Positions 17,528 to 23,081 of a DNA stretch of 49,530 bases are shown here, piece by piece; position 1 is the stretch's first letter, and each line of letters begins with the position of its first letter. Where the stretch lies: contig JAGWLB010000002.1 in NCBI GenBank assembly GCA_028865035.1, forward strand, positions 1-49,530. Direction: 5' to 3'. Position numbers and translations under genes: made by a program. The notes below the pieces were generated by a model. The model was not told the DNA's origin and did not search any database. It worked only from the letters and a program-made list of their open reading frames with translations. The DNA comes from Patescibacteria group bacterium. GTDB taxonomy: Bacteria; Patescibacteriota; Minisyncoccia; Phycocordibacterales; UBA9973.

Positions 17528-19255
17528 ATGAAAGAAAAATTAGAGAATTTAATTAAAGAAGCATTAAAAAATCTTGGAGTAGAAGATTGTGATTTTGTTA
17601 TAGAGCACCCAGATGATTTAAAGAATGGTGATTATTCTACAAATGTAGCTATGGTTTGCGCAAAGGAGCAAAAAACTAACCCAAAAGAATTAGCAGAAAA
17701 AATAAAGATTGAACTTGAAAAAGACTTACCAAAAGAAATTGAAAAAATTGAAGTTGCAGGTGCTGGGTTTATAAATTTTTATTTGTCTCGTGAATTTTTT
17801 GTAGATTCAGTAAAGGAAATTTTAAAATTAAAAGAAGATTGGGGTAAGAACAATCTAAGTGAAGGCAAAAAAGTCATGGTTGAATACACCGACCCAAATC
17901 CTTTCAAACCTTTTCATATCGGTCACTTGATGACAAATGCTATAGGTGAGTCTATCTCTCGAATATTTGAATTCTCGGGAGCTGGTGTGATTCGTGCAAA
18001 TTATCAAGGTGATGTCGGCCCCCATGTCGCCAAGGCTATATATGGGATTATGTGGCTTGTTCCAAACGAAGAATCAAGAACTAAAATGGCGACCATTGAA
18101 CCGGCATCAGATCTTGCCCTATGGATTGGTGAATGCTACGCCAAAGGTGCGAAAGTTTATGAAGAAGATCCGAGTGTTAAAATCCAAATCGATGAAATAA
18201 ATAAAAAGATTTACGACAGAAGTGATCATGAAATAAATAAGATATATGATTGGGGTAGAGAAGTCACCCTCAAGGCTTTTGAAGAAATATATAAAATTCT
18301 TGGAACACATTTTAATTATTATTTTTTTGAAAGTGTTATGGCTCCGATCGGCGAGAAAATTGTTCGTGAAAATGTCGGAGCTGTTTTCAACGAGAGTGAT
18401 GGTGCAATAGTTTTCCATGGAGAGAATTATGATCCAAAGCTTCACACCAGGGTTTTTATAAATTCAAAAGGTTTACCAACTTACGAGACAAAAGAAATAG
18501 GTTTGACTATAACCAAATTTGAAAAAGCAAATCCTGACACATCTATTGTCGTGACGGCTATTGAGCAAGCCGAATATATGAAGGTTGTAGCGAAGGCTAT
18601 CTCGCTTATTCACCCAGACTATGAAAAAAGGATGGAGCATATCACTCATGGGATGATGAAGTTTTCATCTGGCAAGATGTCTTCTAGAAAGGGTAATGTC
18701 ATCACTGGTGAGTCCTTAATCCGTGATTCCATGAGTTTGGTTCATGAGAAAGTTGCCGAAAGAGAATTGACTACAAATGAAAAAGATTCTATTGCTCAGG
18801 TTGTAGGAGTTGGAGCTGTAAAATATTCAATATTAAAATCATCGCTCGGGAGTGATATCGTTTATGATTTTGAGAAATCAATTTCATTTGATGGAGATTC
18901 TGGTCCATATCTACAGTACACAGCAGTTCGTGCGAATGCACTTCTAAAGAAAGCAGAATCTGAAGGTCTAAGTGCAGGGTACAAAGATATACCGACTGAC
19001 ATTACAAATCTTGAACATTTACTATATCAATTTCCAGAAGTTGTAGCTCATTCATATGAACTTCTTGAGCCACATCATATAGCCACGTACCTCACGGAGC
19101 TTGCAAGTGCATTTAATACTTTCTATGGTGATACATTGATTGTGAATAAAAATGATAAGCATGCACCTTATCGTGTCGCTCTTGTAGAAGCCTTCTATCA
19201 AACTATGAAAAATGGTCTCTGGTTGCTTGGCATAGAGACTCCTGAGAAGATGTAA
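17528..19255 (+). CDS. argS: Arginyl-tRNA synthetase
   Basis: From ATG 17528 this is 575 aa; an upstream in-frame ATG (17504) lies inside dut and is rejected. N-terminal Add-1 domain (about 1-90), class I catalytic domain with EYTDPNPFKPFHIGHLMTNA (HIGH at about 130-133), the KMSKS-equivalent GKMSSRKGNVITGE (about 382-395), and a C-terminal DALR anticodon-binding helical domain with DGDSGPYLQYTAVRANAL. The length is close to the E. coli enzyme (577). It is probably co-transcribed with dut. A 334-base gap holding the T-box of ileS follows. Confidence 0.96.
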   Translation: MKEKLENLIKEALKNLGVEDCDFVIEHPDDLKNGDYSTNVAMVCAKEQKTNPKELAEKIKIELEKDLPKEIEKIEVAGAGFINFYLSREFFVDSVKEILKLKEDWGKNNLSEGKKVMVEYTDPNPFKPFHIGHLMTNAIGESISRIFEFSGAGVIRANYQGDVGPHVAKAIYGIMWLVPNEESRTKMATIEPASDLALWIGECYAKGAKVYEEDPSVKIQIDEINKKIYDRSDHEINKIYDWGREVTLKAFEEIYKILGTHFNYYFFESVMAPIGEKIVRENVGAVFNESDGAIVFHGENYDPKLHTRVFINSKGLPTYETKEIGLTITKFEKANPDTSIVVTAIEQAEYMKVVAKAISLIHPDYEKRMEHITHGMMKFSSGKMSSRKGNVITGESLIRDSMSLVHEKVAERELTTNEKDSIAQVVGVGAVKYSILKSSLGSDIVYDFEKSISFDGDSGPYLQYTAVRANALLKKAESEGLSAGYKDIPTDITNLEHLLYQFPEVVAHSYELLEPHHIATYLTELASAFNTFYGDTLIVNKNDKHAPYRVALVEAFYQTMKNGLWLLGIETPEKM

Positions 19256-19258
19256 AAG

Positions 19259-19287
19259 TTGCAAAATTAGCTTTTTGCTTGTATTCT
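19259..19287 (+). promoter_or_regulatory. Promoter of the ileS T-box leader
   Basis: TTGCAA (19259-19264), 17 bases, then TATTCT (19282-19287). Transcription should start at about 19294, immediately before the short Stem I. The -10 lies in the left arm of an 11-bp inverted repeat (TGTATTCTATA at 19280-19290, matching TATAGAATACA at 19479-19489) that brackets the riboswitch. Confidence 0.45.
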
Positions 19288-19322
19288 ATATACATATGCA
19301 TTGATGAGGCTATCACCTCGGA

Positions 19323-19342
19323 GCCTGCCTGCGCAGGCAGGC
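19323..19342. repeat. 20-bp GC-rich perfect palindrome inside the T-box leader
   Basis: GCCTGCCTGCGCAGGCAGGC is its own reverse complement and is 80 percent GC in a region of about one third GC. It occupies the place between the specifier hairpin and the antiterminator where Stem II/III normally lie. It could be a functional stem or an inserted REP-like element. No second copy was noticed in the window. Confidence 0.75.
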
Positions 19343-19412
19343 ATTGGGAAGAAACCCTTTTGGGAAGTAGAGCCCTATAAAATGAGAAGTAAGCAAGGTG
19401 GTACCACGAGAG

Positions 19413-19470
19413 AAACTCGTCCTTGTATAGCAATTTAAAATTGTTGTACGAGGACGAGTTTTTATTTTTT
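19413..19470 (+). terminator. Conditional terminator of the ileS T-box
   Basis: An 11-bp outer stem (19413-19423 with 19451-19461) is extended by an inner imperfect helix around TTTAAA and followed by TTTTATTTTTT. Its 5' arm is shared with the antiterminator (CTCGTCCTT), as required for the riboswitch decision. Confidence 0.85.
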
Positions 19471-19589: not shown

Positions 19590-22500
19590 ATGGATAATGA
19601 AAAAGAAAAATCAATAGCAGCGCAGAGAGAAGAAAAGATTTTGGAATTCTGGCAGGAGAGTAATGCCTTTCAAAAAACTTTAGAAAAAGATTCTCCAAAA
19701 GGTGAATTTGTTTTCTACGAAGGTCCACCGACTGCTAATGGCAAGCCAGGTATTCACCACTTGGAGGCACGAGCTTTCAAAGATGCTATTCCTAGATACA
19801 AGACGATGCAAGGATTTCATGTTCGCCGTAAGGGTGGCTGGGATACGCACGGTCTACCTGTAGAACTCCAAGTTGAGAAAAAGCTAGGATTAAACTCAAA
19901 GAAAGCTATCGAGGAGTATGGCGTCGCTAAATTTAATAAAGAATGTAAAGAAAGCGTTTGGGAATATTTAGATATTTGGAATAAATTCACAAAGCGTATT
20001 GGCTACTGGGTAGATGAAGATCATCCGTATGTGACTTACCATAATGATTATATTGAATCTGTATGGAATGTATTAAAGTCTGTGGATGACAAGAAGCTTT
20101 TGTATAAAGATTACAAAGTTCTACCTTGGTGTGCCCGTTGTGGGACAGCTCTTTCTTCGCACGAGCTCGCACAAGGTTACCAAGATGATAAAGATTTGTC
20201 TGTAACGGCAAAGTTTAAAGTCATAGGACAAGATAATACATATATTTTAGCGTGGACGACAACACCTTGGACTCTACCAGGGAATGTCGCTTTGGCTGTG
20301 GGTAAAGATATTGAATATGTAAAGGTAAAAGTTGGGAATGAGTTTTTAATTGTTGCAAAAGAAAGATTAGCTACTATTTTTTCAGAACCACAAGATGTTG
20401 CAGAAGATTTTAAAGGGAAAGATCTAGTTGGCCTAGAGTATGAACCTTTATTCAGTGAATTAAAAACCCATATGCAAAATTCTGAAATTAGAAAAGAAGA
20501 GTTTTCTAATTGGAAAAATGGATGGAAAGTTTACGCTGCAGATTTTGTAAACACTGAAGACGGTACAGGTATAGTCCATACTGCCGTGATGTACGGACAA
20601 GACGACTTTGAGCTTGGGACAAAAGAAAATTTGCCTAAGTTGCATACAGTTAATGAATCAGGTTATTTTATTACTGATGTAAGTCCAGATTTCCTTTCTC
20701 AAGAAGGGCGATTTGTAAAAGATGAAGATGTCGCAGTTGATATTATCAAAGACCTAGCTCATAGAGGATTACTTTTCAAGAAAGAAAAGTACGAGCACTC
20801 ATACCCACACTGTTGGCGTTGCAAGACACCGCTCATATACTATGCACGTGATTCTTGGTATATACGGATGTCAGATGAGAAAATAAAAACTCAACTTATA
20901 AATGAAAATAAAACTATCAATTGGGAACCATCTTATATTCGTGATGGAAGGTTTGGCGAGTGGCTCAAAGATATTAAAGATTGGGCTATATCTCGCGAGC
21001 GTTACTGGGGGACACCTCTTCCAATATGGCAGAATAAAAATGGTGGATTTGAAGTTATAGGGAGTCTTGATGAATTAAAAAAGAAAACAAAAAAATCTGG
21101 TAACACTTACTTTTTAATGCGTCACGGCCAGACTGATAATAATCTAAAAAATCTTGTCAGCACTGTTATAAACAGTGGGAGCCATCTTACAGATGAAGGT
21201 AAAAAGGAGAATGCCAAGCAAGCAGAGCGTTTAATAAAAGAAAAAATTGATCTTATTATCACATCTCCGTTTAATCGCACAAAAGAAACAGCTGAAATAG
21301 TAAAAAATGTTCTCGGTTTATCTGATGAACAAGTGATAATAGATAATCGACTTCATGAGATGTCCATACCTATGTATGAAGGGAAGACCTGGGATGAATA
21401 TCATAACGATTATCCAAAGACAGTAGAGAATTTTCATAAGGCACCCGAAGGTAATGAATCGTATGCAGATGTAAAACGTCGCACTATGGATTTCTTGTTT
21501 GATATAGAAGAAAAATATCAGAATAAAAAGATACTTATTATTACCCACGGTGGTCCTGCTTGGCTTATGGTAGCAGGGGCAGGTATGTTAGATGATAATG
21601 CAACATTAGATATTATCCTTCATAAAAAAGATTTTCATTATTTAAACAATTCTGAAATCTTAGAATTACCTTTTACTCCTTTCCCTCACGATGAGAATTA
21701 TGAGCTGGATTTCCATAAGCCATACATAGATGAAGTAAAACTTATTTCTGATGATGGAGAGGAACTAATAAGAACAAAAGAAGTAATGGATGTCTGGTTT
21801 GATTCTGGATCAATGCCTTTTGCCCAAGATCACTATCCGTTTGAGAATAAAGAATGGATTGATACCAAAGGTTTCCCCGCTGATTTTATCTCTGAGGCGA
21901 TAGATCAGACTCGTGGATGGTTCTACACACTTCACGCTATTGGTATTTTGACTGGGAGAGGTAAAGCCTATAAGAACGTTATATGCCTAGGTCATATTCT
22001 AGATGACAAAGGGAAAAAGATGTCCAAGTCACTTGGCAATATTGTCGACCCGTGGCAGATGATGGATAAATACGGAGTCGATACTCTTCGCCTCTGGATG
22101 TACTCAGTAAATCAGCCAGGTGAGTCAAAGAACTTTGACGAGAAGACTGTGTCCGAACTTAATAATAAAGTTTTTAATTTACTTTACAATGTCCTTGCTT
22201 TTTATGAGCTATACAGAGATCCAAAATTGGAAATATTGGAATATAAAAAGTCTGAAAATATTTTGGACCAGTGGATTATTGCTCGCTTGAATCAGATAGT
22301 AGAAAGTATGACAAATAATCTTGATAATTATAGACTTCTAGAGCCTGTGCGAGAACTCCGTGACTTTATAGATGACCTTTCTACTTGGTATGTACGCCGT
22401 TCACGTGAGCGTTTGAAAGATAATGATGCAGATGCAAAGCAGACTTTGTATTTTGTACTAAAAACACTCTCGAAAATAATGGCACCATTTGCACCATTTG

Positions 22501-23081
22501 CTTCAGAAGATATTTGGCAGAAATTAAAAAATAAAGATGACGTGGAAAGTGTTCACTTGAGTGAATGGCCAACAATAAATAATGCAGATAATGTTGATAT
22601 CTCAGTTAGTCTTTTGATTGAAATGAAAGCATTGAGGGAACTTGTGACTCTTTCTCTCGAGCAAAGACAAAAATCAGGTATAAAAGTTCGACAACCACTT
22701 AAATCAGTAACGCTCAAAAATCATTTTTCAAGTGATGAATTTATTGAAATTCTGAAAGACGAATTAAATATAAAAGAAGTTTTATATTCTGACGATCAGA
22801 GCGGTGTTGTTACTCTCGATACACATATTACAGAAGAACTCAGATCTGAAGGTCAGTACCGTGAACTTGTTCGCGCTATCCAAGATATGCGTAAAAAGGC
22901 AGGATTGAATCCAAATGATACAGTAAGTCTGACTGTAGAAACCAATGTAGAAGGCCAAGAATTTTTAAACAAATGGCAAAAAGATTTACTGAAAACTGTA
23001 GGAGCAAAAGAAATAAAAATCGCAGAGAATTCTGGTACAGAAATAAAAATCGACGAATTATCATTTAAAATTAGTTTCTAA
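19590..23081 (+). CDS. ileS: Isoleucyl-tRNA synthetase with an internal histidine phosphatase domain
   Basis: The start is ATG 19590 (MDNEKEKS); an in-frame ATG at 19557 would add 11 odd residues. The 1163-aa protein has EGPPTANGKPGIHHL (HIGH equivalent, residues 44-58), an editing domain with TTTPWTLPGN and GTGIVH, KMSKS at 810-814, and an anticodon domain with an ADDLSTWYVRRSRERL-like segment. It aminoacylates tRNA-Ile. Uniquely, about residues 504-700 (21099-21689) form a full histidine phosphatase (phosphoglycerate-mutase-like) domain: FLMRHGQTDNN with His512, SPFNRTKETAE, LHEMSIPMYEG and ITHGG with His653. It is inserted between GSLDELKKK and DFHKPYIDEV of the catalytic domain. Reading frame is continuous on both sides, so it is not an assembly join by appearance. 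Expression is controlled by the upstream T-box. Confidence 0.95.
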   Translation: MDNEKEKSIAAQREEKILEFWQESNAFQKTLEKDSPKGEFVFYEGPPTANGKPGIHHLEARAFKDAIPRYKTMQGFHVRRKGGWDTHGLPVELQVEKKLGLNSKKAIEEYGVAKFNKECKESVWEYLDIWNKFTKRIGYWVDEDHPYVTYHNDYIESVWNVLKSVDDKKLLYKDYKVLPWCARCGTALSSHELAQGYQDDKDLSVTAKFKVIGQDNTYILAWTTTPWTLPGNVALAVGKDIEYVKVKVGNEFLIVAKERLATIFSEPQDVAEDFKGKDLVGLEYEPLFSELKTHMQNSEIRKEEFSNWKNGWKVYAADFVNTEDGTGIVHTAVMYGQDDFELGTKENLPKLHTVNESGYFITDVSPDFLSQEGRFVKDEDVAVDIIKDLAHRGLLFKKEKYEHSYPHCWRCKTPLIYYARDSWYIRMSDEKIKTQLINENKTINWEPSYIRDGRFGEWLKDIKDWAISRERYWGTPLPIWQNKNGGFEVIGSLDELKKKTKKSGNTYFLMRHGQTDNNLKNLVSTVINSGSHLTDEGKKENAKQAERLIKEKIDLIITSPFNRTKETAEIVKNVLGLSDEQVIIDNRLHEMSIPMYEGKTWDEYHNDYPKTVENFHKAPEGNESYADVKRRTMDFLFDIEEKYQNKKILIITHGGPAWLMVAGAGMLDDNATLDIILHKKDFHYLNNSEILELPFTPFPHDENYELDFHKPYIDEVKLISDDGEELIRTKEVMDVWFDSGSMPFAQDHYPFENKEWIDTKGFPADFISEAIDQTRGWFYTLHAIGILTGRGKAYKNVICLGHILDDKGKKMSKSLGNIVDPWQMMDKYGVDTLRLWMYSVNQPGESKNFDEKTVSELNNKVFNLLYNVLAFYELYRDPKLEILEYKKSENILDQWIIARLNQIVESMTNNLDNYRLLEPVRELRDFIDDLSTWYVRRSRERLKDNDADAKQTLYFVLKTLSKIMAPFAPFASEDIWQKLKNKDDVESVHLSEWPTINNADNVDISVSLLIEMKALRELVTLSLEQRQKSGIKVRQPLKSVTLKNHFSSDEFIEILKDELNIKEVLYSDDQSGVVTLDTHITEELRSEGQYRELVRAIQDMRKKAGLNPNDTVSLTVETNVEGQEFLNKWQKDLLKTVGAKEIKIAENSGTEIKIDELSFKISF

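Follow-up and report, generated by a model that had tools for sequence, protein, structure and literature searches.

A probable minimal, transcription-terminating isoleucine T-box riboswitch upstream of ileS in a Patescibacteria genome

Results

Identification of the ileS leader

A 49,530-nt stretch from a Patescibacteria genome (hereafter the window) was analysed, and the leader of its ileS gene is very probably a minimal transcription-terminating isoleucine T-box riboswitch that senses tRNA-Ile. We take this as the default reading because of the anatomy of the leader, the co-evolution of its helices, the fit of codon and bulge to the tRNA, and the two mutually exclusive folds; tRNA binding, the sensing of charging and the regulation itself are predicted from sequence comparison. 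The leader is located at 19293–19470 on the plus strand, in the intergenic region between argS, which ends at 19255, and ileS, which starts at 19590. An RF00230 search found only this T-box in the 735-kb genome. The match (19292–19427) extended over the whole model with 49.4 bits and an E-value of 5.2e-10. This covariance-model check had been proposed together with the sequence-only reading of the region as an ileS T-box in a Patescibacteria-like genome, and that reading is borne out by the match and by the comparative support described below, with every part it had named lying within a few bases. The score is below the RF00230 gathering score of 93 bits, which is a database cut-off and not a biological trait, and therefore the leader is absent from a standard gathering-level Rfam scan. 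Three of the five control genomes with a T-box match likewise score under this cut-off, and a 2025 survey found it too stringent for T-boxes (PMC12452182).

The ileS gene (19590–23081, plus strand) encodes an isoleucyl-tRNA synthetase (PF00133, E 1.5e-115) carrying a histidine phosphatase domain insert, as had been noticed earlier, at residues 508–671 (window 21111–21602; PF00300, E 8.9e-35). The insert is found in the IleS of 41 relatives, with the RHG motif present in 41/41 of these and the second histidine in every one covering that region; because both are kept, the insert is probably catalytically active. Upstream of the leader, the -10 box TATTCT (19282–19287, plus strand) is placed 16 nt before Stem I, and a TAnnnT sequence occurs at the identical spacing in 35 of 52 relatives, so that ileS probably has its own transcription start. 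A possible -35 box, TTGCAA (19259–19264, plus strand), was recognised in the sequence, separated from the -10 box by 17 nt; it is under the threshold of the consensus scan, and similar TTGCA boxes were also seen in relatives. The promoter proposed earlier is thus supported by the -10 box at its fixed spacing, but not by the consensus scan, which gave nothing above threshold at the leader.

Anatomy of the leader

Stem I (19298–19324, plus strand) is only 27 nt long and consists of a GC/GC base, a kink-turn-like UGA/GGA element, the upper helix GAGG/CCUC and the 6-nt loop CUAUCA. Its pairs covary in an alignment of 28 compact leaders, and both helices were also recovered by RNAalifold from 15 compact relatives. 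It had been described as a hairpin of about 5 bp; the ultrashort length was correct, and the upper helix has 4 bp above the kink-turn-like base. The isoleucine codon AUC, followed by A, occupies 19312–19314 (plus strand) in the hairpin GAGG-CUAUCA-CCUC, as expected from the specifier hairpin with ATC recognised before, and the family's ileS leaders likewise carry AUC.

Stem II (19346–19375, plus strand), delineated by covariation and RNAalifold, is composed of the basal GGG/CCC and inner CCC/GGG helices with an S-turn between GAA (19351–19353) and AGUA (19366–19369). Its outer basal pair covaries from G-C to A-U in relatives, and the S-turn letters are nearly invariant among the 28 compact leaders. 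For the segment 3′ of Stem II (19376–19393, plus strand), RNAalifold found no conserved pair in the 15 compact leaders. The leader as a whole folds better than 200 of 200 shuffled sequences, with a z value of -7.5.

An 18-nt palindrome, CCTGCCTGCGCAGGCAGG, lies between Stem I and Stem II at 19324–19341 (no strand assigned), outside the conserved T-box, and widens the gap between the two stems. Eleven copies were found in the genome at one mismatch or less, and none for the reversed control, while nearly all relatives are without it at the corresponding site. This palindrome, at 19324–19341 and at 10 other sites in the genome, is an inserted dispersed repeat. The Rfam alignment placed it as Stem II, an assignment ruled out by relatives without the palindrome, in which Stem II is formed at UUGGGAAGAAA...AGUAGAACCC. 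A diverged insert is present at the equivalent place in the sister leader L021, and another within the Stem I loop of L085. Since the leaders of the window, L021 and L085 all carry inserts, the T-box core evidently tolerates them.

Mutually exclusive antiterminator and terminator

The antiterminator (19394–19425, plus strand; -10.5 kcal/mol), assigned from covariation and the Rfam alignment, contains the T-box AAGGUGGUACCACG (19395–19408, plus strand), whose UGGU at 19399–19402 is predicted to pair with the ACCA end of tRNA-Ile. The competing intrinsic terminator (19415–19470, plus strand), also detected by a terminator scan, is a hairpin of 20 or more base pairs (19415–19459; -29.4 kcal/mol) followed by a U tract. 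The two structures overlap at 19415–19425 and are therefore mutually exclusive, and the difference in their stabilities means that the default state is off in the window. The T-box, antiterminator and competing terminator pointed out in the sequence-only reading were thus all present.

The alignment of 28 compact leaders was used for covariation. The helices of the antiterminator state had 94.2% of their cells paired, with both sides changed in 10 of 20 pairs, and their covariation score was reached by 0 of 500 shuffles. When the partners were slid by 1–3 columns as a control, 35–52% were paired. The terminator helix was 96.1% paired, with changes on both sides in 12 of 20 pairs. Three-way changes preserving both folds were also observed: C-G-C to U-A-U (5 sequences), A-U-A to G-C-G (2) and A/G-U-A to G-C-G (3), where the counts are of sequences and not of independent events. 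Complementarity of the two arms among relatives, on which the earlier proposal had been staked, is thereby documented by compensatory changes in both. By an automatic check, 44 of 49 compact leaders have the competing hairpin and its U tract; visual inspection showed it, with one mismatch, in three of the remaining five.

Specificity of codon, bulge and tRNA

T-box leaders were also found upstream of ileS in relatives; of the family leaders retrieved, 67 precede ileS and others aspS and thrS. The specifiers in the Stem I loop are AUC followed by A or G for ileS, GAC or AAC followed by A for aspS, and ACC followed by A for thrS. All of those observed end in C, as required by the C rule for T-box specifier codons (PMC7583486). 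The automatic count of codon hairpins missed six ileS leaders with inserts or odd spacing; for those of the six whose sequence was displayed, AUC was checked visually. The fourth base of the UGGN bulge is U in 67/67 ileS leaders, C in 9/12 aspS leaders and A in all recognised thrS leaders. The discriminator bases in the window's genome are A73 for tRNA-Ile(GAU), G73 for the Asp and Asn tRNAs and U73 for tRNA-Thr; the codon AUC, the bulge UGGU and A73 are therefore mutually consistent in this genome. Because codon, bulge and discriminator agree across the three tRNA families Ile, Asp and Thr, the comparison provides strong evidence that these leaders do sense tRNA.

Several leaders with other specifiers were observed. 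In L013, L017 and L023, aspartyl-tRNA synthetase-like genes follow an ultrashort T-box with AAC (Asn), and their relatives have GAC (Asp). These three leaders carry UGGU, and the tRNA-Asn recovered from two of the genomes has G73; a G-U pair would be needed there. The gene may perhaps be a non-discriminating AspRS under the control of tRNA-Asn. Ultrashort T-box-like leaders with ACC in the loop CUACCA and with terminators precede thrS (L102, L114, L118–L120 and L281), and similar ones with GGC and terminators precede glyS-looking genes elsewhere in the class (L278, L279 and L284). Outside the family, L128 is an ultrashort leader with AAG in its loop before a lysS-like gene.

Leaders with and without the IIA/B module

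A module of about 19 nt of the IIA/B type, such as CGGGUAAGCCCGUUAUAGC, follows Stem II in 23 of the 67 family ileS leaders; in L007 it was aligned by Rfam to stem IIA/B with the F-box. The other 44, including that of the window, are without it, and Stem II is joined directly to AAAUGAGAAG. In many relatives this reduced switch is present but unannotated. The Rfam alignment could not place stem IIA/B in the compact leader L064, and in the genus of the window 19/19 leaders lack the module. Stem III is also missing from the window and, by a rough count, from many compact leaders; counted through the antiterminator, compact relatives measure only about 115–140 nt. The anatomy proposed earlier was thus nearly all right, but had missed the absence of IIA/B and Stem III and the nature of the palindrome as an inserted repeat. 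On a quick tree of 61 IleS proteins, 10 changes in the presence of IIA/B are needed, at least seven of them forced by well-supported branches, with loss and regain indistinguishable. Leaders bearing the pseudoknot also occur outside the family, so the state without it may be derived.

Two deeply split IleS lineages, of the FYDGPPFATG and FYEGPPTANG types (L090, L096, L106, L110 and L111 versus L060, L072 and L100), are found under nearly identical compact T-boxes within one genus, as if the gene had been replaced beneath a kept leader.

The compact form is unexpected because, according to a review, transcriptional T-boxes generally require a long Stem I with a tRNA-elbow-binding motif, and because deletion of IIA/B from the Nocardia farcinica ileS T-box reportedly lowered tRNA binding about 1,200-fold; an ultrashort Stem I has so far been described for translational T-boxes. 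Loss of the pseudoknot and Stem III, elements needed in other T-boxes, together with a dispersed repeat inside the leader, could be viewed as erosion of a decayed T-box that no longer senses tRNA and now acts as a constitutive attenuator. We consider this unlikely. The compact leaders themselves retain the S-turn, the specifier, the T-box bulge and the two exclusive helices, with compensatory changes, and the occurrence of the compact form in 44/67 family leaders and its repeated changes on the tree look more like a tolerated state than one decayed copy. Ultrashort Stem I being typical of translational T-boxes, a dual or translational switch that also gates ribosome access was considered as well. 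It is very improbable, since the platform is an intrinsic terminator whose U tract lies about 120 nt upstream of the ileS start (19590); no ribosome site overlaps the switch, and no Shine-Dalgarno-type sequestration was found. The earlier proposal of an ultrashort Stem I linked to a transcriptional terminator is therefore confirmed in both respects. An ordinary intrinsic terminator with a chance T-box-like stretch, for which the strong terminator and the argS end just upstream might speak, is ruled out for practical purposes by the RF00230 E-value over the full model and by covariation, and is further contradicted by the -10 box at fixed spacing downstream of argS, the conservation of the ileS leader across much of the family, and the match of codon and discriminator across three tRNA families.

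Distribution in Patescibacteria

A model, R1, was built from compact leaders. The window scored 150.6 bits with it, a value that is not independent, as the window's own leader is in the training set. R1 was positive in 85 of 147 family genomes, and RF00230 at E 0.001 matched 84 of the 147, with none above the gathering cut-off. Across the class, R1 matched in 36/384 genomes; those matches examined included ultrashort leaders before ileS, aspS, thrS and probably glyS, most of the ileS ones having the IIA/B module. Of 380 genomes sampled evenly across the phylum, 126 matched RF00230 at E 1e-4, 13 of them above the gathering cut-off, and 5/14 control genomes had a T-box match. In one genome (G018), the near-identical ileS-type leaders L019 and L061 were found on different contigs, possibly by duplication or as an assembly effect.

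All genome contigs were scanned with a narrow pattern, one that would miss other phyla, and 45 loci were obtained. On inspection, the 13 from Firmicutes and Mollicutes combine a long Stem I with a canonical F-box, and the named ultrashort loci belong to Candidatus Nomurabacteria, Paceibacterota and Zambryskibacteria, a result that assigns the window to this group. A recent single transfer from Firmicutes was rejected on this difference, the ultrashort loci all coming from Patescibacteria-type or unnamed records. With T-boxes in 126/380 genomes of the phylum, an isolated recent transfer is not indicated. Thus, of the transfer or ancient presence suggested in the sequence-only reading, a single recent transfer is argued against, T-boxes of several specificities being common in the phylum. 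TBDB drew its class I sequences largely from Rfam and comparable resources, and it applied its class II model to Actinobacteria and to truncated class I matches (PMC7778990). Because of this sourcing and narrow scope, Patescibacteria-type T-boxes are probably under-represented there. No paper describing T-boxes in Patescibacteria or candidate phyla was found in a search covering mainly open-access literature.

Discussion

For the tRNA-Ile-sensing switch, we propose the following mechanism. The anticodon of uncharged tRNA-Ile(GAU) would base-pair with the AUC of the Stem I loop, forming a duplex braced by the S-turn of Stem II. The free ACCA end would pair with UGGU in the antiterminator bulge and hold the antiterminator, so that the polymerase would read on into ileS. 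Charged tRNA would be unable to make the bulge contact; the stronger terminator would then form and transcription would stop. Stable binding without the tip of Stem I, IIA/B and Stem III may be achieved by positioning through the purine linker AAAUGAGAAG, or low affinity may suffice. Given the long-Stem-I rule and the cost of IIA/B deletion, a working switch of the compact form should not be taken for granted, but every part for codon, anticodon and acceptor-end contact is retained in it.

The leader combines features of known systems. It shares the ultrashort Stem I with AUC, the kink-turn, the Stem II S-turn and the ileS target with the class II translational T-boxes of Nocardia farcinica and Mycobacterium tuberculosis, but it has a transcription terminator in place of a Shine-Dalgarno sequestrator and lacks IIA/B and Stem III. 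With the class I transcriptional T-boxes of Firmicutes (RF00230), it has in common the antiterminator/terminator logic, the T-box sequence and the specifier rule, whereas the apical elbow-binding motif of Stem I, IIA/B and Stem III are absent. The glyQS T-boxes likewise do without IIA/B; they also lack Stem II and have a long Stem I, and the window shows the reverse. A further comparison is with ultrashort leaders of the family such as L007, L009 and L065, which share Stem I, Stem II, the antiterminator, the terminator and ileS, but keep a CGGGUAAGCCCGUUAUAGC-like IIA/B and F-box module.

It is likely that these leaders represent a third working T-box architecture, a transcription-terminating one built from a Stem I of 27 nt, an S-turn-bearing Stem II and the antiterminator, which lacks the elbow contact, IIA/B and Stem III and arose repeatedly in Patescibacteria; if so, none of these missing elements would be indispensable for co-transcriptional tRNA sensing. 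Two working rules, the long Stem I for transcriptional T-boxes and IIA/B for ultrashort ones, both drawn from few models, would be contradicted. Relatives that differ just in the IIA/B module offer a natural experiment on the role of the pseudoknot, and the compact aptamer offers itself for structural work. As to the organism, ilvD was not found in the window's genome, and isoleucine is therefore probably supplied from outside the cell, so that sensing the external supply would make sense. The bacterium, a very small member of the Candidatus Nomurabacteria group, is probably host-dependent. The leader points to control by tRNA charging in streamlined, probably host-dependent bacteria that have no isoleucine synthesis of their own.
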